DNA of 64,000 nucleotides from Diprion similis (lineage: Eukaryota > Arthropoda > Insecta > Hymenoptera > Diprionidae). Positions 28,101-64,000 of this stretch are shown one piece after another (within the stretch, counting starts at the first letter, position 1; every line of letters begins with the position of its first letter). The notes beneath the pieces were generated by a model, which was not told where the DNA came from, made no database searches, and saw only the letters and a program-made list of their open reading frames with translations. The position numbers and the translations under genes were made by a program. The DNA lies in contig NC_060112.1 of the NCBI RefSeq assembly GCF_021155765.1, forward strand, positions 17,670,001-17,734,000, in the 5' to 3' direction.

Positions 28101-31100
28101 GTACGATTAGAAATGATCGTGATTCACGAGTTCATTCTGTTTTTCAGCAAGAACCGTACAGGGTGCTTCGCGAAAATCATCCTGAACGCCTTAAGCGACT
28201 TGTTGTTATTTCTGGGGATACAAGCGTCGAGGGTCTCGCTCTTTCCCCCGAGGACAAGGATCGTTTAATGGAGGATGTTTCCGTGGTTTTTCACATGGCT
28301 GCCAACGTGAGATTCGATCTTCCTCTACGTACTGCTATCAACATGAACACCAAGGGGGCCGCGAATATTATCAAAGTTGCAAAGCAGGTACGTATCTGAA
28401 AAGTCTAGATGCATTTCTATGACACACTTCTTGACTAGAACTTCTTAATTAACGCCAAATCGGATCATCAAAGTTGAAAAGTCAAATTGTTTATATTGAA
28501 GTGTACTTCTTAAAATGATATGCGCAAAAACTCTACAACAAGTTCAGAACTACGAAATCGTACCTCAAAATTTATACCCCCAATTTTTTGAAAGGTATTA
28601 TCTTGATTTTTGTTTTACGTTTGCCATTATTCTCAGTATGCAAAAAACCATTTTACTATACCGTTATACTACTTTCGAAACAGAATTAAGCTTATAAGAT
28701 TCCGAATATTCGTTGTTGATGAGTTTCCTAATGAAGTTTCGATTTCCTTATATCATTCTAACACAAACTGAAAACGATTTGATTTAAAGATTCTTAATAT
28801 TTAAAAAAAAAGAATGCCACTGTTGGACCCAGCCTGAACTGTTCGTTTTTATGCCATACGAATTGAATGTTGTAAGGAAATAAGTTGTGTTCTTGCGCAT
28901 TACTGCCGCTTCGGCCAATGAGAACGTGCTGTCACATAACGTCGTTTTAAGCATTATTTTTAAAAGCTACAAAACAGCCATTCATTCTTATATCCACCAA
29001 ATTTTATTTGACGGGGGAATGATATTCAAATGTTAAATAATTGGATACAGAGGTGACAGAGAAAAAATTTCTCTGATCCTTTCTATGACTGCCTTATTTT
29101 CAGCTGCCAAACTTAGTATCTCTGGTTCACGTGTCAACGGCTTACTGCCATTGCGGACAAACGCGTCTCGAGGAAAGGGCTTACACCCCAAACATTTCGC
29201 CGGAATTTGCAATTGCAGCTGTCGACTCCATGAGCGACGACCAACTGAAGTCTTTAGAGCGCAAATTGCTAGGCGATCAACCCAACACCTACGCTCTGAG
29301 CAAATGCCTCAGCGAAGACCTGATGGCCAGGTCTGGACTTCCGGTAGGCATCGCCAGACCTTCCATTGGTAAGCCGCTCGCATTCCATAATTGCGAATTG
29401 ATCTTTCTTCGATATCTCTATAATCGCGATTCAAAATTATCCACTTCTCCTGCAGTGATCGCATCTTGGAAAGAACCAGCACCGGGGTGGGTGGATAACT
29501 TAAACGGGCCAACCGGTTTGATAGTAGCCGCGGGAAAAGGTGTGATCCGATCGATGCACTGTAACAGTGAATACCTTGCGGACTTAATGCCTTGCGATAT
29601 CGTGGCAAACGCCGTGATTGCTCTTGCCTGGAAGGTGGGTTTGGAAACTTCCTGTAAACCGATTTTCGTCAACGTTACGGAGAGCGGACGAAACCCAATC
29701 ACTTGGGCAGGCGCCCTGAATGCCGGCAGAAGACATGCTCTTTCAAATCCATTTTCAGGTTTGTTATTACGTGCATGAATATCGTGGAAATTCTGCGGAT
29801 CGTCGAGTCGATCGGTACGTGATCGATTTGACTATCTAAATTCCGACCTTACCGACTCAAGGTAATTCGTGATCGAATCATAGAATCGAAAAATCTCTAC
29901 AACCCACCGCCACTAACGTGACACGTTTAATCCGATAGTCGGCATTAGCAATTATACAAATACCTACCAGAGCACGTGGGCATGATACGCAGATTTGATC
30001 AGTTTTCAGCAATTCATGATTTTATACATTACCCTCTCACAATGAACGTGCCATTTGTTCATGCCGATTATTCGAACAATTTAAATGAACAACACCACGT
30101 TGATTGGAAAACAATCTTTCAATATTTTACTGATGAGTTTATTTTTTTAAATTACACTGTTTCGGTGAAAGTTTTAACGAGAAACTGTATTACAATGCAT
30201 TATGTAATTTCGATGAGAACTTGCGTAAGTGTGTATCAAAATGACGAGTCGATGCTTATGAATTTCCCTTCATCCTGGCAGAGATGCCCTTCAGATAATT
30301 AATTTAGCTACAGTTGGCTTATAGTCTGTACAAATTGCGCGATAAGAACTTATTCCAATTATGTCACCAACGTATAATTCAATCGTTAATTTTGTTTACA
30401 TCATATTTTATTCGGTTGATTGTGCGACCACTGCATAACGCTTTTCTGACAATTTTTATTCTTTAACTTTCAGGCCCACTTTGGTATCCAGGCGGTAGAT
30501 TCACTTCCTCAGCAGTTCTGCATTGGTTTTCTGTGATGTTCCTTCACCTTCTCCCTGCCTACCTGTTGGATCCTTTGATATACTTGAGCGGGAACAAACC
30601 TTTTTTGGTCAAGATTCAAGGGAGAGTTTCTACCGGTTTGAGCTTGCTGCAGTATTATACGACCAAGGAATGGGTCTTTCTGTAAGTAGAAATCTTCCAT
30701 TTCCAATACGGCTTGGCTGACTATTTTATATACAAGATTTACAGTCACAAAATTTCTTGCCCTTTTCGAAAAGTTCAATTTTCTCACAGCTTATTATAGT
30801 AACCAATGGCTAAACATATTATGGTCTAAATATGGAATCCGGTGAATCCCCACGAAGTACGAAAAAATAAATTTCAGATAACCTTAAGATTACAGGATGT
30901 GTTTTTATACCATTACATACCGGTTATGGTCTCGGGGAATTTCGTGATCATTATTTGTTCCAAGGTAAGAGGTTATAGACGGTCAGACGCGTGACTCGTC
31001 ACGTCCCTATATTACACTTCTATTGCTATTGCCATCCAATTAAGAGAAGTCGTTTCGTAATGGAACAATTGCAGAAAAAAAAGGTCGCCTCGATCTCGTC

Positions 31101-46340: not shown

Positions 46341-49300
46341 CGGATGTAAGTTACAGCCGAGAGACGTGAGATTTCGTTTGTCATTCATGTGTTGTTGATC
46401 CTACGCTGATTCTGATGTGAAGCAATTCCTCTGCCGTTGATTTCACGCTCATTCCGATGTCTTTTTCGCATTCCTGAGGGTCCAATTAGTGGAAAAAGTG
46501 CCCTGCAAAACGATTCTCAGACAAAAAGTTTTTGAGCTCTGAAAATCGCAAAAAAGCAAGGCTAACCCCTTTGGATTTTTTCGGGTGAAATTTGGCTGAT
46601 TTTGAGAAATGATTGAATCGATTTTTTCGTGCACTATTCTTACGTGATTTTTCGCAAGGAATCGATTGAGCGTAGTCAGAACACGCTGCGACCAACGGAT
46701 CAAAAGTTACAGCCGAAAAACGAAAAATTTCCTTTGCCATTTCTCTGCTGTTGGTTTCACGCTCATTCTGATGTCTTTTTCGCATTCCTGAGGGTCCAAT
46801 TAGTGGAAAAAGAGCCCTGCAAAACGATTCTCGGACGAAAAGTTTTTGAGCTCTGAAAATCGCAAAAAAGCAAGGCTAACCCCTTTGGATTTTTTCAGGT
46901 TAAATTTGGCTGATTTTAAGAAATGATTGAATCGATTTTTTCGTGCACTATTCTTACGTGATTTTTTGCAAGGAATCGATTGAGCGTAGTCAGAACACGC
47001 TGCGACCAACGGATCAAAAGTTACAGCCGAAAAACGGAAAATTTCCTGTGCAATTTCTCTGCTGTTGGTTTCACGCTCATTCTGATGTCTTTTTCGCATT
47101 CCTGAGGGTCCAATTAGTGGAAAAAGAGCCCTGCAAAACGATTCTCAGACGAAAAGTTTTTGAGCTCTGAAAATCGCAAAAAAGCAAGGCTAACCCCTTT
47201 GGATTTCTTCGGGTGAAATTTGGCTGATTTTGAGAAATGATTGAATCGATTTTTTCGTGCACTATTCTTACGTGATTTTTCGCAAGGCATCGATTAAGCG
47301 TAGTCAGAACACGCTGCGACCAACGGATCAAAAGTTACAGCCGAAAAACGAAAAATTTCCTTTGCCATTTCTCTGCTGTTGGTTTCACGCTCATTCTGAT
47401 GTCTTTTTTGCATTCCTGAGGGTCCAATTAGTGGAAAAAGAGCCCTGCAAAACGATTCTCGGACGAAAAGTTTTTGAGCTCTGAAAATCGCAAAAAAGCA
47501 AGGCTAACCCCTTTGAATTTTTTCGGGTGAAATTTGGCTGATTTTGAGAAATGATTGAATCGATTTTTGCGTGCACCATTTCAACGTGATTTTTCGCAAG
47601 GAATCGATTGAGCGTAGTCAGAACACGCTGCGACCAACGGATCAAAAGTTACAGCCGAAAAACGAAAAATTTCCTTTGCCATTTCTCTGCTGTTGGTTTC
47701 ACGCTCATTCCGATGTCTTTTTCGCATTCCTGAGGGTCCAATTAGTGGAAAAAGAGCCCTGCAAAACGATTCTCGGACGAAAAGTTTTTGAGCTCTGAAA
47801 ATCGCAAAAAAGCAAGGCTAACCCCTTTGGATTTTTTCAGGTTAAATTTGGCTGATTTTGAGAAATGATTGAATCGATTTTTTCGTGCACTATTCTTACG
47901 TGATTTTTTGCAAGGAATCGATTGAGCGTAGTCAGAACACGCTGCGACCAACGGATCAAAAGTTACAGCCGAAAAACGGATAATTTCCTGTGCAATTTCT
48001 CTGCTGTTGGTTTCACGCTCATTCTGATGTCTTTTTCGCATTCCTGAGGGTCCAATTAGTGGAAAAAGAGCCCTGCGAAACGATTCTCAGACGAAAAGTT
48101 TTTGAGCTCTGAAAATCGCAAAAAAGCAAGGCTAACCCCTTTGGATTTTTTCGGGTGAAATTTGGCTGATTTTGAGAAATGATTGAATCGATTTTTTCGT
48201 GCACTATTCTTACGTAATTTTTCGCAAGGAATCGATTGAGCGTAGTCAGAACACGCTGCGACCAACGGATCAAAAGTTACAGCCGAAAAACGAAAAATTT
48301 CCTTTGCCATTTCTCTGCTGTTGGTTTCACGCTCATTCTGATGTCTTTTTTGCATTCCTGAGGGTCCAATTAGTGGAAAAAGAGCCCTGCAAAACGATTC
48401 TCGGACGAAAAGTTTTTGAGCTCTGAAAATCGCAAAAAAGCAAGGCTAACCCCTTTGGATTTCTTCGGGTGAAATTTGGCTGATTTTGAGAAATGATTGA
48501 ATCGATTTTTTCGTGCACTATTCTTACGTGATTTTTTGCAAGGAATCGATTGAGCGTAGTCAGAACACGCTGCGACCAACGGATCAAAAGTTACAGCCGG
48601 AAAACGAAAAATTTCCTTTGCCATTTCTCTGCTGTTGGTTTCACGCTCATTCTGATGTCTTTTTTGCATTCCTGAGGGTCCAATTAGTGGAAAAAGAGCC
48701 CTGCAACACGATTCTCGGACGAAAAGTTTTTGAGCTCTGAAAATCGCAAAAAAGCAAGGCTAACCCCTTTGAATTTTTTCGGGTGAAATTTGGCTGATTT
48801 TGAGAAATGATTGAATCGATTTTTTCGTGCACCATTTCAACGTGATTTTTCGCAAGGAATCGATTGAGCGTAGTCAGAACACGCTGCGACCAACGGATCA
48901 AAAGTTACAGCCGAAAAACGGAAAATTTCCTGTGCAATTTCTCTGCTGTTGGTTTCACGCTCATTCTGATGTCTTTTTCGCATTCCTGAGGGTCCAATTA
49001 GTGGAAAAAGAGCCCTGCGAAACGATTCTCAGACGAAAAGTTTTTGAGCTCTGAAAATCGCAAAAAAGCAAGGCTAACCCCTTTGGATTTATTCGGGTGA
49101 AATTTAGCTGATTTTGAGAAATGATTGAATCGATTTTTTCGTGCACTATTCTTACGTGATTTTTCGCAAGGAATCGATTGAGCGTAGTCAGAACACGCTG
49201 CGACCAACGGATCAAAAGTTACAGCCGAAAAACTAAAAATTTCCTTTGCCATTTCTCTGCTGTTGGTTTCACGCTCATTCTGATGTCTTTTTTGCATTCC

Positions 49301-50333
49301 TGAGGGTCCAATTAGTGGAAAAAGAGCCCTGCAAAACGATTCTCGGACGAAAAGTTTTTGAGCTCTGAAAATCGCAAAAAAGCAAGGCTAACCCCTTTGA
49401 ATTTTTTCGGGTGAAATTTGGCTGATTTTGAGAAATGATTGAATCGATTTTTGCGTGCACCATTTCAACGTGATTTTTCGCAAGGAATCGATTGAGCGTA
49501 GTCAGAACACGCTGCGACCAACGGATCAAAAGTTACAGCCGAAAAACGAAAAATTTCCTTTGCCATTTCTCTGCTGTTGGTTTCACGCTCATTCCGATGT
49601 CTTTTTCGCATTCCTGAGGGTCCAATTAGTGGAAAAAGAGCCCTGCAAAACGATTCTCGGACGAAAAGTTTTTGAGCTCTGAAAATCGCAAAAAAGCAAG
49701 GCTAACCCCTTTGGATTTTTTCAGGTTAAATTTGGCTGATTTTGAGAAATGATTGAATCGATTTTTTCGTGCACTATTCTTACGTGATTTTTTGCAAGGA
49801 ATCGATTGAGCGTAGTCAGAACACGCTGCGACCAACGGATCAAAAGTTACAGCCGAAAAACGGAAAATTTCCTGTGCAATTTCTCTGCTGTTGGTTTCAC
49901 GCTCATTCTGATGTCTTTTTCGCATTCCTGAGGGTCCAATTAGTGGAAGAAGAGCCCTGCGAAACGATTCTCCGACGAAAAGTTTTTGAGCTCTGAAAAT
50001 CGCAAAAAAGCAAGGCTAACCCCTTTGGATTTTTTCGGGTGAAATTTGGCTGATTTTGAGAAATGATTGAATCGATTTTTTCGTGCACTATTCTTACGTG
50101 ATTTTTCGCAAGGAATCGATTGAGCGTAGTCAGAACACGCTGCGACCAACGGATCAAAAGTTACAGCCGAAAAACGAAAAATTTCCTTTGCCATTTCTCT
50201 GCTGTTGGTTTCACGCTCATTCTGATGTCTTTTTCGCATTCCTGAGGGTCCAATTAGTGGAAAAAGAGCCCTGCGAAACGATTCTCAGACGAAAAGTTTT
50301 TGAGCTCTGAAAATCGCAAAAAAGCAAGGCTAA
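46341..50333. repeat. 314-bp satellite array, about 12.5 monomers
   Basis: Landmarks such as CTAACCCCTTTGGATTTTTTC and GATTGAGCGTAGTCAGAACA recur every 314 bases from about 46430 to the transposon boundary at 50333. A degenerate edge monomer with an insertion of about 37 bases occupies 46341-46430. Monomers differ by a few per cent and fall into recurring types (ACTATTCTTACG or ACCATTTCAACG; TTTCGCAAGG or TTTTGCAAGG). 314 is twice 157, close to two nucleosome core lengths. The open frames in it are by-products of the repeat. Confidence 0.95.
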
Positions 50334-52745
50334 TGTTACGTGGGAGGGTGGACGTGAGGAGAGCGGTAAGAGTTTACGACTATTAAGGATAATAATCGAT
50401 TATGCACCCACGTAACAGCGCTGAATAAAACTTAAAACTAAGGAAGACCTACCTTTCGGTACGCCGGTATATGTAGGATCGTGTTGCTATAGTCCTATAC
50501 AGGTCTGTGAGATTGATTTAAATAGGTTGAGGCTAATTTATAATAGTAATGACTTAATCCTGAAATTGAGAAAGGTTGTTGTTCGAAATAAACGGGTTAT
50601 TGGATTTAACTGGTAAAATATGGATTATATTCTTCAAACGATTTTGGAAATGATAAGGGTTGAAGTTACAAAAAGGTTACATATAATTTGTTACATAACA
50701 TAAAATGATAAATTAAGGCCGCAAGATCTATAATGAGTGCGCATTAAGTATAACTGGTCGTTTTAGTAATTTGTATCTCTCTTTTTAGATTTATGCATCC
50801 TCTAGTTAAATTACAACATATATATATTACGTTCCGCCCAATCTCGGAAACACACACACTTGTTTGTCTATTAATAAAGTCCTAATTGTGTACGGTATCG
50901 TCAGGAGAGTAACTCTGCAGTGTGTCCAGGAGGATCCACGAACGATAACCGTACAGGACAAAGATATCTAGGATCTTCGATGTCTAAATTTAATAATCAA
51001 GGTATCGTCAGGAGAGTAACTCTGCAGTGTGTCCAGGAGGATCCACGAACGATAACCTTGTTTAGACAGATCCTGTGCGTGTGGTTCCGTCGATCGGATT
51101 GAACGTGTATACTTATTCTTATACTTTGATTTAATCGAAAAACACAGGTGACAATATATATATAGTTCCTAATTAATTAACCAAGGTGATAGGAGCCAAG
51201 CTGAAAGCCAGAGAATACCTCTCGAAATACCTAAACGATATTGACTTCTAGCTAGGCACCAATTCTATTGTTTGATTTAATTATTGAATTTATAATATAG
51301 GTATTGGTGAACAATTAGTGGTGGTTTAAAGGAGTGGCTAGTGAAGCTTGCCACCAAGACATGAGTTATTGAAAAAGACGATTTTTCGTTTGGCTAGAGA
51401 TGCTGGCCAATAAACAGAATGTTAATTACCAATAGGCAATATTTGAATAGGAATATAAATTTATCAAATTGGTGATTATCTAGATTCGGTTGATGTTGGA
51501 GTGAAACATTCGAATTGACTTAGCTTTTGTAGAGTGGTGCGTCGAGATTGAGTTCCGTCGGATCGTGTCGGTCAGGGTCTTAGTAATCTGGACCTGAGCC
51601 TCACCTCGAGTCGTACGAATGGATGGATTACGTATAGATGTTGGAGCTCGAGATCAGCCACCAAAGCAGACTCGGGGGTTGATGATCGTAGATTCGGATT
51701 ACCGTCACTCGGGCAGTACGTTAAATTTGGATGAATTAAATTGCGAAGGAATCTACTGATTTACACCGTTTACTAGTTATGTGGTGTTCAAGTTTAATTA
51801 GATGAGAAATTGAATGGTTATATCTTATTATCGTTAATCACTTAAAATTACCTGACTCGGTAGAATCAGGGCAGAACTTGATTTAATTTTTGTTAAAGGA
51901 AATGAATGTCATAAAAATGTCTATTCGCGAAGATAAGAGAGTCAGTACAGAACAGGAAAGAATTTGAAATAAGGTGATAGTAAGTCTTTGCAATTCACAA
52001 TATAAATTGAAAGCTTGAGTTTAACGAATTAGCACGGTACTTTAGGCCGGTCACAATGAAGATTTTCCGAACACTACTATCGACCAGAAGGGCTAATACG
52101 GGTTGACGTCCACGCACCTCGCGACTTGACAGACGAAAGACATGGCGTCTTGGGCCTGACGGTCCAAGAGCCCTCGGTGCAACAAAGTTACAGCGGTAAT
52201 TAGCCAATGAGATGCGAGGGCGACCTCCCGGTGCCAGAATCGGCATGGTCAGCGTCACTCCGGGCCTGACTCGAGTGCTCCGACGGTGTTCCGACGATTC
52301 TCAATCTCGTCGGTTACATACTATGATTACGAGTAAAAGATATCGAGATGCAATTCTCACACATTCATCCATACACCTTAATGAACAACCTATTTTAATT
52401 TGGTACATATTGTACGTATGGTTTAGCCTGATTGTTGATGATGACTTTGACTTAAAAAGAAGAGACACTTTTGGGTTGAGACTCGTTGGGGTTTATCTCA
52501 CCACTTCGCGCTTTGCGTTCTTGGTAATGTTAAATATGGCACCAAGTTAAACCTAATACGCGGGCCTGTACGTGACTTTCTCTAGGAGGGGTGGAACTCG
52601 TCGGTTGAAGCAATATGATATTTTGCGTTATAATCATCGAAACGAAACTCTCAAGCGCTGTGGCTGTTGAGTAAGATGAAGCAATTCTGTGATTATGTTT
52701 TAATTTTGAAAAAGGTTCGCCGAGGCGGTACGTCGGGACGTAACA
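50334..52745 (-). repeat. 3' LTR (2412 bp)
   Basis: The left LTR on the + strand is the 3' LTR of the element. It includes a 57-base direct repeat (50894-50950 and 51001-51057) and an 11-base inverted repeat (50334-50344 against 50407-50417). Short open frames occur on both strands, are repeated in the other LTR, and show no family features. 2.4 kb is long for an insect Gypsy LTR. Confidence 0.95.
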
Positions 52746-52756
52746 TCCCTCCCCAC
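52746..52756 (-). promoter_or_regulatory. Polypurine tract
   Basis: On the - strand GTGGGGAGGGA abuts the 3' LTR directly. This is the expected position and composition of the plus-strand DNA primer. Confidence 0.8.
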
Positions 52757-53759
52757 TTAGAAAAAGTCAACGTCCTCGTTGATAATCTATTTATTATAGG
52801 CATGGGTTATTATAGGTAATATATATTGATATTATAATATGTAGAATATAGAAAAGCTCAAGTATTGAATATCCGTCTCTACCCGTTTCTTGATCTTACA
52901 TTGGGGTTAGCATGCGAAAACCGTGTACATCAATTTCAGAGATATTCGGAATTGTACATTATATCAATCGAAATGTGAACCTGATTTAGATGTTCGTGAA
53001 GCAAGTGATTTAATGGAAAGGTGTTTGGGGTATGTTAAGATTATATCGAAGCGTCGAATAGTGATAATGATTTTATATAGTAAAATGACTTATGTTTGCC
53101 ATTGCTCTAATAGCTGCGATGTTGTGTGCTATCAACATCCAGCTTCGGCGTTGCTGGACATCAGGTGTACCGTGTCCTCTGGCTGGTGGTCGAGGTCTGC
53201 AGCATTAGCTCGGAGAGAAGGCTTAGGTTTTGGTAGCCTTCTGGCGAGTCCAGTATCATGTGGCCCACAGATACTCGTGGTGGTCCATTTCCGTAGGTGT
53301 AGGGTGAGTACCTTGGCAGCGGATCCTCATCGATGTTGGTTGACGAGAAAACATTTTGGCAGTACTCTGGAGTGCTGCGGTGTATCGGCAACCAGATCGG
53401 CAGGTTCCCTCTTATGTGCCAGTAGGTTTCCGTCGCCTCAGGTGAATGATGTTTCCCTGGGTTCCTTTGGAATAGGTACAGTCTGGACTCAACAGCTTGT
53501 AGACTGCATACAGCCACTCGTACTCGCCTTTTCTCCTGTTAATTTTTGTAAAATTTTTCAGCAGATTGCCATTTCACATAAGTGTTTGCCGGAATTCCAA
53601 TGGTCATATTTACTAATGTACTGTAGTTTTTGATTTCAATTTGGGAATAAAGGAATTTTGAAAGAAAGGACGGGTTTTGAGGTTAACGTCATACTGGGTA
53701 TTTGGGAAACTTCTGAACAGGCTCTAAGAGCGGATGGAGTTCAACTGTGAACGTTCATC
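52757..53759 (-). other. 1-kb segment between the last pol-side frame and the 3' LTR
   Basis: It holds a 118-codon frame on the - strand (53161-53517), rich in Pro, Ser and Tyr, with no domain I recognise and no signal peptide or membrane segment of the kind an envelope protein would have. A 236-codon frame on the opposite strand (52923-53633) overlaps it. I cannot say which, if either, is translated. Untranslated regulatory sequence is equally likely. Confidence 0.4.
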
Positions 53760-54041
53760 CTAGATGTCAACTTCAATTTTAAAGCTAGTTACAGATGCGT
53801 ATCCCTCGTTGCGGTTGGTCACGCCCCAGCCGATGGCGTTAATCTTAAAACTATTTAAAATTAAAGAATCTACGCATATTTTATATGAAAATTTCTTCGG
53901 ATTGTTTCGCAGGTCTTTCCGCATCGTACTCGCTTCTGGGCTCGTCTGTGTCACGTCGGTTTCCACATGACCTTCCTCTTTTACTGGTTCCGAAAATGAG
54001 TGCTCTTCATCTATTCCGCATGTTCTGACTCCTTTTATCAT
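53760..54041 (-). CDS. Small frame directly after pol (93 aa), unknown
   Basis: The ATG follows the pol stop codon without a gap (TAAATG), in the same frame. The product is 93 residues, acidic in its first half (EEHSFSEPVKEEGH), with no recognised domain. It could be reached by reinitiation or stop readthrough, or it could be untranslated. It is not an envelope protein by any feature I can see. Confidence 0.3.
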   Translation of the reverse strand: MIKGVRTCGIDEEHSFSEPVKEEGHVETDVTQTSPEASTMRKDLRNNPKKFSYKICVDSLILNSFKINAIGWGVTNRNEGYASVTSFKIEVDI

Positions 54042-54908
54042 TTAATAAGCCAATTCGAGTTTGTCTCTATGTTTTACGAATCTTTCACCATTACTATCCT
54101 CTAACACCACGTTATTGTTTTCCAAAACCTTTATGATTCTATATGGTCCTTGATATCGTTTGCTAAACTTTCCCTTCCTTGCTTCTATTCGCACGCGTAC
54201 CATGTCCCCTGGCTTGCCTTTAAAAGGATGCACTTTCCTGTCGTAATACCTTTTCGACCTTTCCTTTGCCTGCACTAAGTTATTAGCAGCTAAGGTTTGC
54301 ATTTCCTTCATTCTAATTATAAGATCTTCGAGATAGGAATTGTACGTTGGAGGATTTTCATTTGTGTCGAATGAATTTGGGTAACGCGCGGTTCTTCCGT
54401 AAACTAGTTCATACGGTGTAAAGTTTGTGGCTTCATGAACTGCCGTATTATATGAAAACATCGCGAATTGAACTAGCTCGTCCCAATCGTCGAACTCGTT
54501 TATATAATGCTTTATATATTCTGTTAAAACTATATGGCTTCGTTCTAAAGCGCCATTAGATTGCGGGCGATAACTCGATGTAGTAATGTGTTTAATTCTG
54601 AAAGCATTAGCCAATTTCTGTAATAGATTATTTACGAAACTTGTTCCTCTGTCTGTCAAAATTATTTTTGGTGTCCCGAATTGCAAAATCAAATGTTTCA
54701 CCATCGCGTGAGCTACGGTTTCAGCTCTAATATCAGGCAAGGGCACGGCGATGCAGAATTTGGTCAAGTTATCTTGCATAGTTAAAATATGCTTATTACC
54801 ATTAGGTGTTTGTGGTAATGGGCCTACAGTGTCGAGTGAAATTTTCTCGAACGGCTCTGATGGAGTATCCGTTATCAACATTGGCTCCCTAGTCTTTACA
54901 CGGACCAA
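54042..54908 (-). CDS. Integrase core and C-terminal domain (3' part of pol, 288 aa)
   Basis: Retroelement integrase inserts the cDNA into host DNA. The D,D-35-E catalytic triad is visible as Asp26 (SLDTVG), Asp86 (LTDRGTSF) and Glu122 (NGALERS). TPYELVYGR follows the core, and a C-terminal GPY/F-type module is seen near GKFSKRYQGPYRI, with no chromodomain after it. The frame is separated from the rest of pol by one base in an A7 run (54933-54939). The zinc-binding histidines lie in the upstream frame and the cysteine pair is encoded in this one. The nominal start codon is therefore probably not a real start: this is the 3' part of Gag-Pol. The stop is followed at once by another ATG. Confidence 0.9.
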   Translation of the reverse strand: MVRVKTREPMLITDTPSEPFEKISLDTVGPLPQTPNGNKHILTMQDNLTKFCIAVPLPDIRAETVAHAMVKHLILQFGTPKIILTDRGTSFVNNLLQKLANAFRIKHITTSSYRPQSNGALERSHIVLTEYIKHYINEFDDWDELVQFAMFSYNTAVHEATNFTPYELVYGRTARYPNSFDTNENPPTYNSYLEDLIIRMKEMQTLAANNLVQAKERSKRYYDRKVHPFKGKPGDMVRVRIEARKGKFSKRYQGPYRIIKVLENNNVVLEDSNGERFVKHRDKLELAY

Positions 54909-57900
54909 TTTCTGTTCTTGGCAACTTACGCATTTTTTTAATGAAGTTGTTTATATCGTCTCGCATTCGTGGCCAATAGAACCTTTCCCTTATCCTGCGG
55001 TACGTTTTTGTCATTCCCTTATGTCCTCCGATCACTCCCGCGTGTAATTCTGCTATTATCCCGGATCTAATTTCTGCCGGTGGTATTTCGGTCATTCCTA
55101 GGCAAATAGTAATTTCAATGTCTTGTTCTTTGAAAACATCTAAAAGTAATCTAGGTACGGTCTCTGATTGTAGTTCATCCGTCAGGTCTCCTGATTTCGA
55201 GATTCTAAACGTTTTAATTTTGAGTTCTGTTAATACGTCTTTTAAATTTTCCAGTGCGTTTCTTACATTTTGAGTTTTTATTTTGTCATAATATTTTTCT
55301 TTTATCACGAGTCCAAATACTCGGTGTTTACCATGATTTGTTATAATGATTTGGCTTAATTTTGGTTTTGTTGCTTTTTGTTCATTCGCATTTATAATTT
55401 CTAAATCACTTAGCAGTCTGCTAATTGGTGTCGAAAGTTCTGAATCAATGGATGTAAAATAAACATAATTATCTTTATGATAGGTTAAATTTTCTCTGCT
55501 TAGCAAAATTTTTCCTCGTTTAGTGCAAGTTGCAGCTGGTAAACTTAAAGGTTGTCTCTCTTCTAGGTCTGGTGGTATCTTTTCTGTAATTTTGATCCCG
55601 TTTGTGAAACTAGCTTTTTCTAATTGTGGCTGTAAACGTCTCGGCGTCTTAGTGACCTTGTTTCGTATTGAAATATCCCCTGTTTCATCTAACTCTGGTA
55701 TCATACTTAAAGGATACGGAGTAGATAGTGCTATTGGTCGGGGAGCAACTAAAGGTGTTGGTAGAGTTGATTTTTGTAAAGGTCTGCTAACTAAAGATTC
55801 GTTGGAATTACTCTCAACGGTCTCAGTTTCGACAGCCTCGTCGTTACTGCCTTTGTTATTCTTCACTCGTTTTATAAATCTTTCAATTTTGTTATTTAGA
55901 ATTTCGTCATCTGTTTCGTCTAGTTCATCTAGTACTTCGCGAGCTAACTCCTCTAAATTTTCGCCTTCTGATATAGCATCTGGTAATTCTATTCCTCTTT
56001 CTTCATCGTCTGTATCATTTGAGTTATCTAAAAGGGTTTTCTCGTGTAATGATTTGTCAAAACGGTCAAATGATTTTCGTAATTCTTTTGGATCTATTAT
56101 ACTTCTTTCATGCAATGATTTATCAAACTGTTCGAATGATTTCTGTAATTCTTCACGATCTATTGGTAATTTGTTACTGATTTTTCGATTTGATTGTGGA
56201 GGCAAAAATACATCATCGTCTGAATCGCTATTCTGTCGTGTTGATTTTAATTCAATGGCTATATTATCAGGTTCTAAATTAGATTCGTCATCCGCGTCAC
56301 TATTTGTTTCAGACTGTATGTCGGTCTGTTCCTGTTCTATTGTTTTCTGAGATGTAGTCGCTTGTTCTGAACCTAAACTCGGCAGTACACTGCGCTGTTT
56401 TCGGTAGGCCGGTGGTTCGGAGGATTCATCATCGGATGAATCCGTTGAATTGGCCTCTGGTATCGGATTCAGATCTTGTCTAGCACTAGGTGTTGTTTTG
56501 ACTCTAGATCGCGTTCTGGATGCGATTGTATTCGCAACCGGTTCAATAGTCTTTTGGTATTTCCATTTTGGTTGGAAACTATCATCACCTGATTTTCTAG
56601 TTGTGCTGGATGAGCTTGGTTTGCTTGACGGTGCTTTGCCTTTCGCGGAGGGAGTTGACTTCGCGATTGGTCTCTTAAATTTTGACGTCGCTGTTTTAGG
56701 AGGATTCGAGCTAAGTGGTAAAATCTGCCAATGATTACGTTTTGGTTTCATTTTTAGAGCAGGTAACGGATTGGTTTTAGCAAATATCGTTTTGAGGCTT
56801 TGGTTTTCTATCAAGGCTAAATTTTTACAGGCATAGATTTTAATTCCTGTCCCTCTGAATATGTATCGTAACATAATTCTAACCTTGTGCCATTCTAATT
56901 TGTCCAAGCCGCAACCCATTCTAGGTATTCTAACTGATTTTATTGAATCGTCTTCTAGAATTTTTCGGAAATTTATCAAACTGCGATACAAATCTTCATA
57001 AGTTGGTTTATCCCAAAAATATAATTTAGTCATAATATAATAAATTTTGTGATCCGGTAAATCTAACTTTGCTACTGAGTGTAGATCGGCTTGACTAATG
57101 AGATGATCCGGTACACCGTACCGTTTTCGGAAGTCGACTGCAATGCCGGCTTTCATCTCTAGGTCCGCTGAAACTGTATGTGCGTAATTGTCGAGTTTGT
57201 CGAAAACACTCTCGTCTATTTCTATTATGTCCGGATTTTTAATTTCTGCTGTTTTAGTTATTTTCAAAAAGTCTGAATATTTCGGAAAGTCCTCTACTGA
57301 CTTTACTATAAAATTACTATCATCACTATCACTATCAGATGAGTTCGACCATTGGTCGTTACCGTCCGATTCAGGGACTGGGTTACGTGAAAGCGCATCC
57401 GCGTTGACATTTAATCGTCCGGCTTTATGATTGAATTCGTAATCATAATCTCTTAGTTTAAGCCTCCATCGTACTAACCTTTGTCCCGGATCTTTGTAGT
57501 TATCGATCCATTTTAGTGGTTCGTGATCGCTAAAAAGTTGAAATTTTCGGCCATAAAGATAAGGTCGAAACTGGTTCACGGCATATACTACTGCGAGACA
57601 TTCCTTTTCAGTGGTAAAATAATTTTGTTCAGCCTTGTTCAGAGCACGAGACAGGTAGGCAACAGGCATATCGTAGCCGTCAACTTTCTGACTCAAAACG
57701 GCTCCGATGGCATAATCGGATGCATCAGTGGTCAGAGTGAAAGGTTTTGCAAAACTTGGATATTGTAGAATTGGTTGTTGACATAAAGATTTTCTAAGAA
57801 TTTTGAAACTTTTCTTTTGGTCTTTTCCCCAAATAAAGGGTGCTTCCTTTTTTAATAATTCAGTGAGTGGCTTAGCTTTAGCCGCAAAGTCTTTTATGAA

Positions 57901-59649
57901 ACGCCTGTAATAACCAGCGAGTCCAAGAAATTCTCTAATATTTTTCTGAGTTTTGGGTGTTGGAAAATTTCGAACTGCAATTATTTTCTTCGGGTCCGGT
58001 TTAACTCCTGATCTGCTAATTATGTGGCCTAGATATGCGACCTCAGTTTTTAAAAATTCACACTTATCTGGTTGTAAAGTTAATTTTGCTTCCTTTAATT
58101 TATTAAACAGGCGACGGACCTTTTTACCGTGTTCTTCCAAATTCTTCGCGTAAACCACGATGTCGTCTAAATAAACGAAAACTTCTACTCCTTGCAATCC
58201 GCGTAATGTTTGATCCATTAATCTCTGAAAAGTAGCAGGCGCGTTCTTTAATCCTTCTGGCATTCTAACGTATTCGTAATGACCGTTTGGTGTTGTGAAC
58301 GCGGTCTTGGCTCTATCGCGCGGATCCATTTCAATTTGTTGGAAACCGCTGGCAAGATCGAAGGTTGAAAAATACTGCGCCTCGCCAAGATGATCTAAAA
58401 TATCAGTGATGTTCGGTAATGGATACGCGTCTCCGATAGTTTTCTCGTTAAGTTTTCTGAAATCAATTACCATGCGCCATCGTTTTCTACCCGCAGAATC
58501 TGGTTTCTTCGGTACAATCCACACAGGTGAATTGTAGGGTGAGTTTGATGGTGTTATAATTTTGCTGTTAATTTTGATTTTAACTTGATTTTCAATTTCT
58601 GTTTTATGAATCGGGGGAAACCGATATTGACGCGTGTTAATTGGGATTTCATCGGTTGTAGGTATTTGGTGTTTAATACCAGGTGTAAATTTTAATTTAT
58701 CTCCGGGTAAGTGAAATAAATCCGGAAATTCCTCGATGATATCTAACACGTGTTCGCGTTCCTCTTTATTTAAATGATCTAAATGTAATTTTGACTGAAT
58801 TTCTTCGAATCGGTTAGTCGTTACAGGTTCAATATTTAATTCATCTGAACTTAAATCATGGTATTCTTCCTCTTCAGGGAAGTTGTGATATTCAAAGGGT
58901 ATTATTTCTTGTGGAGGGATCTCTATTTCAACATCCTCATCTAGTGTATTAATGGCAAGGACATGGCATTTCCCATCCTCAACCGAGACAGCAGCCTCAC
59001 CAATGTATACGCCTTCGATGGTTTCTATTTGCGGTAAATAGGCTTCGCTTCTGCCGCAGCTGAAAACGTCGATCCCGATAGCTTGTTTTGTTCTCGCTTT
59101 AATTTTGTAAAATCTTTTCCGCGGTTTCGTTTCTAAATCAGAGTCTGAATCGTCCTCATGTCCAATGAATCGAATCGGTTTTATCGGTGCTGTATTCATG
59201 ACTATTGTATTGTGTGTAAAAGAAATTTCTGCCTCTCGTTCACGCAAAAAGTCTTTTCCTAAAATTCCGTCACAAGGTAATGGAAACGTGGAACGCACCA
59301 CGCGAATTTTGCTTGGATAATTTTGAATTGTTAAATTCGTAACTCCTAAGGTTTTGATTTCTTCAGTTGTTATTCCCGTGATGATTGAAATTTCGTCGGT
59401 GCAAATTAACACGTCAGGGTGTAAGATTTTTGCTTTTATTAAACTGATATCCGCGCCAGTGTCGATAAGGAATTCGCCTGAGTGGTTTTTTAATTCTGGA
59501 GCGGTTATTCGTATTAGCGGCGATTTTCTACGTCGCTCGCCCGTGTGTGTTCCCCGGCTGGTGGTTCCGCAAATCGGACCGTCGGCAGACGCTCGGTCGT
59601 CGCGCTCCTCGTCGTCGCGTCCGGGCGACGAGTCGCGTTGTAGTTTAAA
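54889..59649 (-). CDS. Pol: protease, RT, RNase H, macro domain, linker, second macro-like domain, integrase zinc region
   Basis: Residue 1 is placed at 59412, but the frame is open upstream to 59658 and is entered by -1 frameshift from gag. Protease Asp-Thr-Gly is at 59455-59463. RT has YLDD at residues 414-417, and RNase H runs about 555-680 with Asp563 in TTDASDY. Residues about 725-862 match the TARG1/OARD1 class of macro domains (ADP-ribose binding or hydrolysis), with His745, Lys796 and Asp837 correctly spaced. An acidic Ser-rich linker with a 22-residue tandem repeat (about 1084-1127) follows. A second macro-like segment (about 1305-1440) keeps Lys1371 and Asp1412. The integrase zinc-binding histidines end the frame, which then breaks at 54933-54939. 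RT has MPEGL where MPFGL is usual. Most of this is secure; the macro domain calls are hand alignments. Confidence 0.9.
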   Translation of the reverse strand, partial: FKLQRDSSPGRDDEERDDRASADGPICGTTSRGTHTGERRRKSPLIRITAPELKNHSGEFLIDTGADISLIKAKILHPDVLICTDEISIITGITTEEIKTLGVTNLTIQNYPSKIRVVRSTFPLPCDGILGKDFLREREAEISFTHNTIVMNTAPIKPIRFIGHEDDSDSDLETKPRKRFYKIKARTKQAIGIDVFSCGRSEAYLPQIETIEGVYIGEAAVSVEDGKCHVLAINTLDEDVEIEIPPQEIIPFEYHNFPEEEEYHDLSSDELNIEPVTTNRFEEIQSKLHLDHLNKEEREHVLDIIEEFPDLFHLPGDKLKFTPGIKHQIPTTDEIPINTRQYRFPPIHKTEIENQVKIKINSKIITPSNSPYNSPVWIVPKKPDSAGRKRWRMVIDFRKLNEKTIGDAYPLPNITDILDHLGEAQYFSTFDLASGFQQIEMDPRDRAKTAFTTPNGHYEYVRMPEGLKNAPATFQRLMDQTLRGLQGVEVFVYLDDIVVYAKNLEEHGKKVRRLFNKLKEAKLTLQPDKCEFLKTEVAYLGHIISRSGVKPDPKKIIAVRNFPTPKTQKNIREFLGLAGYYRRFIKDFAAKAKPLTELLKKEAPFIWGKDQKKSFKILRKSLCQQPILQYPSFAKPFTLTTDASDYAIGAVLSQKVDGYDMPVAYLSRALNKAEQNYFTTEKECLAVVYAVNQFRPYLYGRKFQLFSDHEPLKWIDNYKDPGQRLVRWRLKLRDYDYEFNHKAGRLNVNADALSRNPVPESDGNDQWSNSSDSDSDDSNFIVKSVEDFPKYSDFLKITKTAEIKNPDIIEIDESVFDKLDNYAHTVSADLEMKAGIAVDFRKRYGVPDHLISQADLHSVAKLDLPDHKIYYIMTKLYFWDKPTYEDLYRSLINFRKILEDDSIKSVRIPRMGCGLDKLEWHKVRIMLRYIFRGTGIKIYACKNLALIENQSLKTIFAKTNPLPALKMKPKRNHWQILPLSSNPPKTATSKFKRPIAKSTPSAKGKAPSSKPSSSSTTRKSGDDSFQPKWKYQKTIEPVANTIASRTRSRVKTTPSARQDLNPIPEANSTDSSDDESSEPPAYRKQRSVLPSLGSEQATTSQKTIEQEQTDIQSETNSDADDESNLEPDNIAIELKSTRQNSDSDDDVFLPPQSNRKISNKLPIDREELQKSFEQFDKSLHERSIIDPKELRKSFDRFDKSLHEKTLLDNSNDTDDEERGIELPDAISEGENLEELAREVLDELDETDDEILNNKIERFIKRVKNNKGSNDEAVETETVESNSNESLVSRPLQKSTLPTPLVAPRPIALSTPYPLSMIPELDETGDISIRNKVTKTPRRLQPQLEKASFTNGIKITEKIPPDLEERQPLSLPAATCTKRGKILLSRENLTYHKDNYVYFTSIDSELSTPISRLLSDLEIINANEQKATKPKLSQIIITNHGKHRVFGLVIKEKYYDKIKTQNVRNALENLKDVLTELKIKTFRISKSGDLTDELQSETVPRLLLDVFKEQDIEITICLGMTEIPPAEIRSGIIAELHAGVIGGHKGMTKTYRRIRERFYWPRMRDDINNFIKKMRKLPRTEIGPCKD

Positions 59650-60923
59650 TGATCTGATTCAGAATCCCTACTCGGCGAAGCTGATCGCGCTCTGTCATTT
59701 TCTATTGATCTTTTTGTGTCATGCGAACGCGAGAATGGATTAGGTGAATTTGGTCTGTTCGTTCGATTGCCTGATCCTCTGGCTTCGGACCACCTTCCTG
59801 ATGGAGATGCCGATCTATTCGGGCTGAAATTTGGCGATCGCGGTCTTTGATAATTTAACGCAGGAGTCGAAGTCGGTGCAGGTAAAGCGAGTTGTTGGTT
59901 AGAAGCCGAAGTATTCGTCATAGCAGGCGGGTATCCATATGGTGAAAAATAGGGGTATCCCATCGGTGGATACATGTAAGGAAAAGGAGGATATTGGAAC
60001 GGTTGTCCGTATTGCGCATTCGCGTTGTGTTGAAAAGGCTGACCGTGCTGGGTATTATAATTATATTTAGGTGGGTAATACCCGCGCGTTTCGGACGTGG
60101 TTGGTGACGACCTCCCGCTAGCGCTTGCCGTCGGATACCTGCTGTGCCGGGTCGCACTCGGCGACGGGCTTCTCGCACGTGTTCCGCTTTCTTCCAAAAC
60201 TGAGTGTGTTAAATATTTTCGCGACCTATAGTAATCGTCGGAAAGAGCAGGAGAAACTGGTCGAGCCAGTTGTATTCTTTGGGTTTCCTCGGAAGGGACT
60301 ATCCCTTCTTCAATTCGCATTTCCGTCTTGCACGCTAGGTCGTGGGCCTCGTCGAGGGTTTTTACCCGTCCCTCAACATACCTAAATATGGATACTGGTA
60401 ATCCTCGCATAAACGCATCCAAAGCATTTTCCTTTAATACATTCATGGTACTTTCTATGTCCGCGCCCGGATACTTGTCCTCTAACGCGACTCTAGCACC
60501 GTGTATTAAGATGTTAAGTCGATCGTAAAAATCACTGACGGTTTCGTCGCGTCTCATCCGTAGAGACGAAATCTCTTGTTGGTAATAAGGAAAAGTTTTC
60601 CTCGCGGCAAACCGTTTCTTTAGGTGTTTTGTTAAATCATCGATTGTCTCGAATGTCTTTCCATATGTACTATCGCGCGCTTTACCCTGAAGCTTTGATA
60701 TAACAGCCTTTATAAATGCTGCTTCCGCATTTGGTGGTACGAATATCGAACCGTTATGAACGTCTTGCAAAAAATCTTTTAATCGAATATTTTTCCCGTC
60801 GAAATGGGATATATTTGCCATGCTCTGTTGTAAGGCATAGTAGTCTGTTATCGTTGAATCATTAACGCTTCGATTCGTGACATTGGTTCGGTCCGCGCTC
60901 TGGTTTCCAGATTGGTGAACCAT
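59514..60923 (-). CDS. Gag (469 aa), without zinc knuckle
   Basis: Capsid polyprotein of the retrotransposon. The first ~220 residues form a retrotransposon Gag-like region (LQGKARDSTY, then FAARKTFPYYQQEISSLRMRR split over two motifs). The C-terminal half is low-complexity, rich in Pro, Tyr, Ser and Arg, with NANAQYGQPFQ-type repeats. It has essentially no cysteines, so the CCHC nucleocapsid knuckle common in this superfamily is missing; the Arg-rich tail may bind RNA instead. The ATG at 60923 is the first in frame after the leader. The last 145 bases overlap pol, which is reached by -1 frameshift at 59643-59649. Confidence 0.9.
   Translation of the reverse strand: MVHQSGNQSADRTNVTNRSVNDSTITDYYALQQSMANISHFDGKNIRLKDFLQDVHNGSIFVPPNAEAAFIKAVISKLQGKARDSTYGKTFETIDDLTKHLKKRFAARKTFPYYQQEISSLRMRRDETVSDFYDRLNILIHGARVALEDKYPGADIESTMNVLKENALDAFMRGLPVSIFRYVEGRVKTLDEAHDLACKTEMRIEEGIVPSEETQRIQLARPVSPALSDDYYRSRKYLTHSVLEESGTRARSPSPSATRHSRYPTASASGRSSPTTSETRGYYPPKYNYNTQHGQPFQHNANAQYGQPFQYPPFPYMYPPMGYPYFSPYGYPPAMTNTSASNQQLALPAPTSTPALNYQRPRSPNFSPNRSASPSGRWSEARGSGNRTNRPNSPNPFSRSHDTKRSIENDRARSASPSRDSESDHLNYNATRRPDATTRSATTERLPTVRFAEPPAGEHTRASDVENRR
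59602..59649 (-). promoter_or_regulatory. -1 ribosomal frameshift signal between gag and pol
   Basis: The heptamer T-TTA-AAC (59643-59649, - strand) lies in the gag frame exactly as X-XXY-YYZ requires. After six bases a stem can form: GCG, then CTCGTCG (59632-59626) pairing with CGACGAG (59614-59608) around an 11-base loop, with CGC closing. The pol frame opens just upstream of the heptamer, at 59658, and overlaps gag by 145 bases. Confidence 0.8.
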
Positions 60924-61281: not shown

Positions 61282-61299
61282 ATCCCACCGCTGCCACCA
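61282..61299 (-). promoter_or_regulatory. Primer binding site, tRNA-Leu type
   Basis: On the - strand TGGTGGCAGCGGTGGGAT is complementary to the 3' end (including CCA) of a common eukaryotic tRNA-Leu. It sits eight bases from the 5' LTR, a usual distance. Confidence 0.8.
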
Positions 61300-61307
61300 A
61301 AACAGGA

Positions 61308-63719
61308 TGTTACGTGGGAGGGTGGACGTGAGGAGAGCGGTAAGAGTTTACGACTATTAAGGATAATAATCGATTATGCACCCACGTAACAGCGCTGAAT
61401 AAAACTTAAAACTAAGGAAGACCTACCTTTCGGTACGCCGGTATATGTAGGATCGTGTTGCTATAGTCCTATACAGGTCTGTGAGATTGATTTAAATAGG
61501 TTGAGGCTAATTTATAATAGTAATGACTTAATCCTGAAATTGAGAAAGGTTGTTGTTCGAAATAAACGGGTTATTGGATTTAACTGGTAAAATATGGATT
61601 ATATTCTTCAAACGATTTTGGAAATGATAAGGGTTGAAGTTACAAAAAGGTTACATATAATTTGTTACATAACATAAAATGATAAATTAAGGCCGCAAGA
61701 TCTATAATGAGTGCGCATTAAGTATAACTGGTCGTTTTAGTAATTTGTATCTCTCTTTTTAGATTTATGCATCCTCTAGTTAAATTACAACATATATATA
61801 TTACGTTCCGCCCAATCTCGGAAACACACACACTTGTTTGTCTATTAATAAAGTCCTAATTGTGTACGGTATCGTCAGGAGAGTAACTCTGCAGTGTGTC
61901 CAGGAGGATCCACGAACGATAACCGTACAGGACAAAGATATCTAGGATCTTCGATGTCTAAATTTAATAATCAAGGTATCGTCAGGAGAGTAACTCTGCA
62001 GTGTGTCCAGGAGGATCCACGAACGATAACCTTGTTTAGACAGATCCTGTGCGTGTGGTTCCGTCGATCGGATTGAACGTGTATACTTATTCTTATACTT
62101 TGATTTAATCGAAAAACACAGGTGACAATATATATATAGTTCCTAATTAATTAACCAAGGTGATAGGAGCCAAGCTGAAAGCCAGAGAATACCTCTCGAA
62201 ATACCTAAACGATATTGACTTCTAGCTAGGCACCAATTCTATTGTTTGATTTAATTATTGAATTTATAATATAGGTATTGGTGAACAATTAGTGGTGGTT
62301 TAAAGGAGTGGCTAGTGAAGCTTGCCACCAAGACATGAGTTATTGAAAAAGACGATTTTTCGTTTGGCTAGAGATGCTGGCCAATAAACAGAATGTTAAT
62401 TACCAATAGGCAATATTTGAATAGGAATATAAATTTATCAAATTGGTGATTATCTAGATTCGGTTGATGTTGGAGTGAAACATTCGAATTGACTTAGCTT
62501 TTGTAGAGTGGTGCGTCGAGATTGAGTTCCGTCGGATCGTGTCGGTCAGGGTCTTAGTAATCTGGACCTGAGCCTCACCTCGAGTCGTACGAATGGATGG
62601 ATTACGTATAGATGTTGGAGCTCGAGATCAGCCACCAAAGCAGACTCGGGGGTTGATGATCGTAGATTCGGATTACCGTCACTCGGGCAGTACGTTAAAT
62701 TTGGATGAATTAAATTGCGAAGGAATCTACTGATTTACACCGTTTACTAGTTATGTGGTGTTCAAGTTTAATTAGATGAGAAATTGAATGGTTATATCTT
62801 ATTATCGTTAATCACTTAAAATTACCTGACTCGGTAGAATCAGGGCAGAACTTGATTTAATTTTTGTTAAAGGAAATGAATGTCATAAAAATGTCTATTC
62901 GCGAAGATAAGAGAGTCAGTACAGAACAGGAAAGAATTTGAAATAAGGTGATAGTAAGTCTTTGCAATTCACAATATAAATTGAAAGCTTGAGTTTAACG
63001 AATTAGCACGGTACTTTAGGCCGGTCACAATGAAGATTTTCCGAACACTACTATCGACCAGAAGGGCTAATACGGGTTGACGTCCACGCACCTCGCGACT
63101 TGACAGACGAAAGACATGGCGTCTTGGGCCTGACGGTCCAAGAGCCCTCGGTGCAACAAAGTTACAGCGGTAATTAGCCAATGAGATGCGAGGGCGACCT
63201 CCCGGTGCCAGAATCGGCATGGTCAGCGTCACTCCGGGCCTGACTCGAGTGCTCCGACGGTGTTCCGACGATTCTCAATCTCGTCGGTTACATACTATGA
63301 TTACGAGTAAAAGATATCGAGATGCAATTCTCACACATTCATCCATACACCTTAATGAACAACCTATTTTAATTTGGTACATATTGTACGTATGGTTTAG
63401 CCTGATTGTTGATGATGACTTTGACTTAAAAAGAAGAGACACTTTTGGGTTGAGACTCGTTGGGGTTTATCTCACCACTTCGCGCTTTGCGTTCTTGGTA
63501 ATGTTAAATATGGCACCAAGTTAAACCTAATACGCGGGCCTGTACGTGACTTTCTCTAGGAGGGGTGGAACTCGTCGGTTGAAGCAATATGATATTTTGC
63601 GTTATAATCATCGAAACGAAACTCTCAAGCGCTGTGGCTGTTGAGTAAGATGAAGCAATTCTGTGATTATGTTTTAATTTTGAAAAAGGTTCGCCGAGGC
63701 GGTACGTCGGGACGTAACA
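61308..63719 (-). repeat. 5' LTR (2412 bp)
   Basis: The right LTR on the + strand is the 5' LTR of the - strand element and should carry the promoter. It is the same length as the 3' LTR; a constant offset of 10,974 holds across it, so there are no indels between the two. It carries the same 57-base direct repeat (61868-61924 and 61975-62031). Confidence 0.95.
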
Positions 63720-64000
63720 CTAACCCCTTTGGATTTTTTCGGGTGAAATTTGGCTTATTTTGAGAAATGATTGAATCGATTTTTCCGTGCACTATTCTTA
63801 CGTGATTTTTCGCAAGGAATCGATTGAGCGTAGTCAGAACACGCTGCGACCAACGGATCAAAAGTTACAGCCGAAAAACGAAAAATTTCCTTTGCCATTT
63901 CTCTGCTGTTGGTTTCACGCTCATTCTGATGTCTTTTTTGCATTCCTGAGGGTCCAATTAGTGGAAAAAGAGCCCTGCAAAACGATTCTCGGACGAAAAG
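63720..64000. repeat. Satellite array continues to the window edge
   Basis: The 314-bp monomer resumes at the duplicated CTAA and runs off the window. It is in phase with the array at 50333, which shows that the retrotransposon split one monomer. Confidence 0.95.

Follow-up and report, generated by a model that had tools for sequence, protein, structure and literature searches.

A TARG1-class macro domain inside the Pol polyprotein of a Ty3/Gypsy retrotransposon from Diprion similis

Background

Macrodomains are well known from viruses, where they are located in the replicase proteins of RNA viruses. Human TARG1 (also named OARD1 or C6orf130) is a cellular protein without any Pol portion, and some Ty3/Gypsy retrotransposons carry accessory Pol domains such as chromodomains. 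Macro-domain open reading frames (ORFs) are also on record in fish endogenous retroviruses, as described in a passage of PMC4977317. Here we describe a Ty3/Gypsy long terminal repeat (LTR) retrotransposon from a stretch of 64,000 nucleotides of the Diprion similis genome (contig NC_060112.1, positions 17,670,001 to 17,734,000; this whole stretch is referred to as the window, and coordinates without a contig name are those of the window). Its pol gene encodes a macro domain of the TARG1 class. The literature searched yielded no description of a TARG1-type domain within Gypsy Pol.

Results and discussion

A TARG1-class domain between RNase H and integrase

Judged by its sequence and predicted structure, the domain (subsequently referred to as macro1; pol residues 727-864, 56821..57234, minus strand) is a genuine macro domain of the TARG1 class inside Ty3/Gypsy Pol. 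An earlier note, made from the letters of the window, had placed a TARG1-like macro domain at pol residues 725-862, between RNase H and integrase, with His745, Lys796 and Asp837 as the residues matching TARG1. The domain and all three residues proved to be located as claimed, and Pfam shows reverse transcriptase (RT), RNase H and the integrase zinc-binding domain H2C2 in that order in the same ORF.

Pol residues ~737-860 were compared with the Protein Data Bank (PDB) by phmmer. Each of the best five distinct sequences was human TARG1/C6orf130, with ~124 residues matched at E 2.9e-23 to 3.4e-23, and the next macro entries followed at E 0.0057 and 0.0066. The similarity of macro1 to TARG1 thus exceeds that to other macrodomains. 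The earlier note had named two refuting outcomes, a profile search without a macro-domain hit and a predicted fold lacking the macro alpha/beta/alpha sandwich, and neither occurred. Sequence and profile searches gave macro matches, though with a Pfam score below the cut-off, and the predicted macro1 structure shows the macro alpha/beta/alpha fold, with TARG1 as the closest match and DarG as the next-best.

The equivalents of the TARG1 catalytic dyad Lys84/Asp125 are present in macro1 as Lys796 and Asp837. Of 34 candidates in the protein collection, 22 relatives (135-262 aa) passed and were aligned with the window macro1. The Lys796 and Asp837 columns are invariant in all 23 sequences, and conservation in the His column is 90% or more.

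Selection on macro1

Comparison of the window element with locus L003 gave Ka/Ks values of 0.015 for RT, 0.041 for RNase H and 0.070 (0.03-0.16) for macro1. The spacer before macro1 (0.142), the compared part of a second macro domain (0.178) and the linker between the two (0.265, the highest value) all lie above this. These values support purifying selection on macro1. Between the window and L016 or L040, synonymous sites are at or near saturation. Over 56809-57240, the synonymous divergence of macro1 from L003 is 0.387, compared with 0.54-0.95 in the other pol segments.

The macro domains could also be captured passengers that are neutral or serve as mere spacers in the polyprotein. Sister lineages without macro1 and the decay of the second domain would fit such a history, but the macro1 Ka/Ks of 0.07, the retention of the dyad at 38% identity between subfamilies and the probable repeated recruitment of the domain make it very unlikely.

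A second, degenerate macro domain

Directly before the integrase H2C2 domain lies macro2 (pol residues 1301-1439, 55096..55512, minus strand), a degenerate TARG1-like macro domain. It is separated from macro1 by a linker (pol residues 869-1290, 55543..56808, minus strand) whose composition is rich in S, E, K, P and D. TARG1 is top-ranked for macro2 in the PDB (phmmer, E 0.01). A hidden Markov model (HMM) built from three macro1 sequences detects macro2 with i-E values of 1.1e-14 (window), 3.2e-16 (L016) and 2.4e-4 (L040). In hhalign, macro2 still matched the TARG1-like set with a probability of 98.6 when the most TARG1-like row was left out, as against 1.0 for the RT/RNase H control. The predicted model (pLDDT 68.1) also has TARG1 as its best fold match, from an input alignment that itself contained TARG1-like proteins. 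Sequence comparison thus supports homology of macro2 to TARG1-class macro domains.

The active site is another matter. His is replaced by Tyr in the window macro2, the loop around its Asp is altered, and the GCGLD loop is found exactly in none of nine degenerate rows. Lys is present in 6/9 of these rows, Asp is aligned in 5/9 and both occur in 4/9, including the window macro2. His, Lys and Asp together are found in none of the nine, so that macro2 falls outside the TARG1 class as defined by these three residues.

This decay, together with the position of macro2 at the integrase zinc finger, would suit a reader rather than an eraser: both macro domains would do no more than bind ADP-ribose and anchor the integration complex on chromatin or DNA breaks that carry this mark. 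For other Gypsy elements, such a tethering role is ascribed to chromodomains, and in P0027 a TARG1-like macro domain shares one protein with a chromodomain and an integrase zinc finger. However, Lys and Asp of macro1 are kept in every readable representative row, across two tree clusters, and a pure reader has no need of a catalytic dyad. We therefore consider a pure reader unlikely.

Distribution in the genome and in other proteins

The assembly that contains the window comprises 269 Mb in 60 contigs. Genome searches with macro1, macro2 and the window RT yielded 224, 190 and 556 candidates, of which the best 150 were scored in each case; human TARG1 as query gave 112 matches among the best 150 scored of 187 candidates. 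Among the best 150 RT matches, 102 showed at least 58% identity. Within the matches listed, 90 of these 102 had a macro match at most 5 kb downstream on the same strand (two in 65 cases, one in 25), and for the remaining 12 none was listed within 5 kb, these absences being soft. None of the 48 RTs with 42-50% identity had a downstream macro match among those listed. Three of the 12 loci were read: in L055 and L056 macro1 is absent and a divergent macro2 is present (E 5.4e-13 and 3.2e-13), and no macro domain was found in L057.

Both macro domains occur in four lineages, namely the groups of the window, L016, L040 and L044. In L048/L045, L050, L055 and L056, macro2 is present and macro1 is missing between RNase H and the linker. 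Some loci show further macro-like stretches. In the element of L046, L050 and L060 (C14:3856500-3861600, minus strand), which also carries macro2 before the integrase, a degenerate macro domain after the integrase is followed by an aspartic-protease-like stretch (by eye) and then by a TARG1-like macro domain with a stop. In L051 (C2:946803-947027), a member of the L044 group, a degenerate macro-like stretch lies upstream of RT (i-E 5.5e-11 with a TARG1-like protein profile, E 6.7e-4 to human TARG1).

A protein search with the L040 pol fragment left 6 of 304 candidates, and the domains of P0025-P0028 were read from Pfam names, with the remainder assigned by eye and alignment. P0026 (1709 aa) runs from a protease-like start through RT, RNase H, macro1, linker and macro2 to H2C2 and integrase. 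P0025, from the sawfly Athalia rosae, contains the end of RNase H followed by macro1, linker, macro2, H2C2 and integrase. In P0027, the chromodomain follows H2C2 and precedes the TARG1-like macro domain, after which comes a membrane/glycoprotein-like sequence (by eye). P0028 has its TARG1-like macro domain upstream of RT. P0023 and P0024 are isoforms of one annotated Athalia gene.

An assembly chimera or a chance similarity is refuted by these data, since separate copies lie on many contigs, public proteins from other sources have the same domains and the match to TARG1 reaches E 3e-23.

Origin of the macro domains

Trees were calculated for 30 and for 35 domains. Macro1 of the window, L003, L016 and L044 clusters with the macro2 sequences (98/96 in the 30-domain tree, 96/93 in the 35-domain tree), and because these macro1 and macro2 sequences fall together, a duplication within the element lineage fits the data. 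A second cluster comprises macro1 of L040, L033, L046, P25 and P26 (96/94, 35-domain tree). It joins animal TARG1 with a support of 97/96 in the 30-domain tree, where P0002 and L046_m3 lie inside this grouping, and of 89/76 in the 35-domain tree, where P0002 and P27 do. The long branches in these trees call for caution.

A single clade for all macro1 sequences was rejected (p-AU 0.0013 and 0.00045), and a single clade for all element macro domains was rejected marginally (p-AU 0.040 and 0.046). Element lineages have probably taken up a TARG1-class domain repeatedly, as far as can be judged from these sequences. The genome also harbors two host TARG1-like genes in tandem (L043, C2:13509000-13513000). 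Each was matched in two pieces, which we read as an intron-split gene, and the element macro domains that were read are continuous where these genes are split.

Proposed function

PMC9411070 describes the chemistry of the TARG1 dyad Lys84/Asp125, in which Asp takes a proton from Lys; the Lys then attacks the distal ribose at its anomeric carbon, and glutamate or aspartate is set free. We think with good confidence that hydrolysis is the most likely activity of macro1, since the dyad residues are present and under constraint. The fuller statement, that Pol contains a TARG1-class domain which most likely is an ADP-ribosyl hydrolase using the TARG1 Lys/Asp chemistry, we regard as probable. The hydrolase reading of the earlier note is backed by the TARG1 class of the sequence, the predicted fold, the conserved dyad and purifying selection; hydrolysis and its substrate, like packaging and biological role, we infer. 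The substrate could be Glu/Asp-linked or nucleic-acid-linked ADP-ribose or O-acetyl-ADP-ribose, and to counter host PARP signalling, as that note suggested, would be one possible role. Macro2 and the spread of the domains over the lineage go beyond what the note had noticed.

In macro1, Asp837 would deprotonate Lys796, whose attack on the anomeric carbon of the distal ribose would release the acceptor. As macro1 is encoded together with RT and integrase, it would probably travel in the particle and in the pre-integration complex. There it could strip ADP-ribose added by host transferases from integrase, capsid, cDNA ends or the chromatin at the integration nick; ADP-ribose on host defence proteins is another possible target. 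Macro2 adjoins the integrase zinc finger and has lost the His and the glycine-rich loop, so it may be an arm of the integrase with weak or no catalytic activity, which binds ADP-ribose or has a structural role.

Several observations weigh against a hydrolase of the TARG1 class. The Pfam Macro score (PF01661) of macro1 is 16.2 bits for the whole ORF and 19.8 bits for a 200-aa piece (match at residues 800-845), under the curated cut-off of 22 bits; of three other macro1 pieces, L040 passes (35.2-37.0 bits) and L016 (17.5) and L044 (13.8) fail. Macro1 shares 38% identity with L016 and with L040, compared with 73% for RT, and three matched residues would not prove catalysis. The macro1 Ks of 0.37-0.39 is lower than the 0.52-0.95 of other segments (L003, L005, L008), so recombination is possible and may blur Ka/Ks. 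In the near copy L002 the differences are too few for a verdict (macro1 0.139, 0-0.58). The RTs of L048/L045, L055 and L056 come without macro1, which makes the domain dispensable in sister lineages. Finally, the integrase core of the window copy does not share the frame of the remaining pol, and the window insertion itself may therefore not be active.

A narrower form of the hydrolase reading is that the enzyme removes thymidine- or end-linked ADP-ribose from the DNA or RNA of the element, which would protect its reverse-transcribed DNA. PMC9411070, in the part that concerns the ALC1-like class, places TARG1 beside DarG and discusses the reversal of thymidine ADP-ribosylation as a function of this class. 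DarG is also the second fold match of macro1, and macro1 is encoded together with RT and integrase. The residues of macro1 do not separate protein from nucleic-acid substrates, however, and we see a restriction to nucleic acids as rather improbable.

More broadly, and only tentatively, insect Gypsy elements may have acquired TARG1-class hydrolases more than once and duplicated them, with selection maintaining the catalytic copy because ADP-ribosylation would be a means by which hosts restrict retroelements. Macro1 would then be a counter-defence enzyme within Pol and macro2 a reader arm beside the integrase, a scenario that we hold to be possible but doubtful. Should macro1 be an active hydrolase, ADP-ribosylation would form a directly testable layer in the conflict of insects with LTR retrotransposons, in parallel to the part that macrodomains play for some RNA viruses, and integrases would gain an ADP-ribose-linked module. 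One genome with related lineages that carry both macro domains or macro2 alone offers a comparison for the role of this module.

Structure of the element

The element is coded on the minus strand. Its 5' LTR (61308..63719) and 3' LTR (50334..52745) have TG..CA ends and are identical base for base over 2412 bp, which points to a very recent insertion. A target site duplication, CTAA, is found at 50330..50333 and 63720..63723, and the primer binding site (61282..61299, minus strand) is complementary to the 3' end of tRNA-Leu(AAG); the 3' end matching this site was located three times in the genome, and ARAGORN identified a tRNA-Leu(AAG) in all three cases. Together with the presence of gag and the order RT-RNase H-integrase, these features identify a Ty3/Gypsy LTR retrotransposon. 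The insertion target is an array of 314-bp repeats, which flanks the element in tandem at 46422-50333 and 63720-64000. The LTR itself holds an exact 57-bp repeat (50894-50950 and 51001-51057).

The gag ORF (59514..60923, 469 aa) matches Pfam Retrotrans_gag with 28.2 bits (cut-off 24.1). The pol ORF (54889..59412) encodes 1507 aa from a GTG codon, or 1589 aa from stop to stop, and is open further upstream. It contains RT (residues 301-465, 58018..58512; RVT_1, E 5.7e-39), RNase H (residues 528-656, 57445..57831; RT_RNaseH and RT_RNaseH_2) and, after the macro domains, H2C2 (residues 1445-1492, 54937..55080; Integrase_H2C2, E 2.8e-15). The integrase core (54564..54860; rve, E 9.1e-14) lies in another frame, in the neighbouring ORF 54042-54908, and the frame change falls at 54889-54908, between the zinc finger and the core. 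In L016 and L040, RT through integrase core are in one open frame. On the coding strand of 52746-54041, the sole ORF of at least 100 aa has 118 aa; no profile search was aimed at env. Elsewhere in the window, ORF pieces at 7061-7423 and 29131-29778 match Pfam NAD_binding_4 (Male sterility protein), as in fatty acyl-CoA reductases.

Comparison with known systems

While ORFs with macro domains are known from retroelements, a TARG1-type domain inside Gypsy Pol appears to be new as far as the literature searched shows. The closest match in sequence and fold is human TARG1, of the TARG1 group of ALC1-like macrodomains, with equivalents of His, Lys84 and Asp125 at matching spacing; unlike TARG1, the element domain is internal to a retrotransposon polyprotein and accompanied by a second, degenerate copy. 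Athalia rosae LOC105684241 (P0023) and the two L043 genes also have TARG1 domains, followed at the three places read by a stretch weakly resembling the element macro2 (hhalign 57-80), but they are annotated or apparent cellular genes, intron-split in L043, and not retroelements. Alphavirus and other viral macrodomains likewise bring the macro fold into a genetic parasite and were lower-ranked fold matches (8-14% identity in the rows listed). The macro domains of vertebrate retroviruses are retroelement-encoded as well, but as additional ORFs whose class is unstated in the passage of PMC4977317, in contrast to the two domains described here, which are of TARG1 type, internal to Pol and found in an insect-type genome. 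In its LTRs, tRNA primer, gag, RT-RNase H-integrase order and extra Pol domain near the integrase, the element resembles other Ty3/Gypsy LTR retrotransposons. Unlike in chromodomain Gypsy elements, its accessory domain is a macro domain of the ADP-ribosyl-hydrolase type, inserted between RNase H and integrase.
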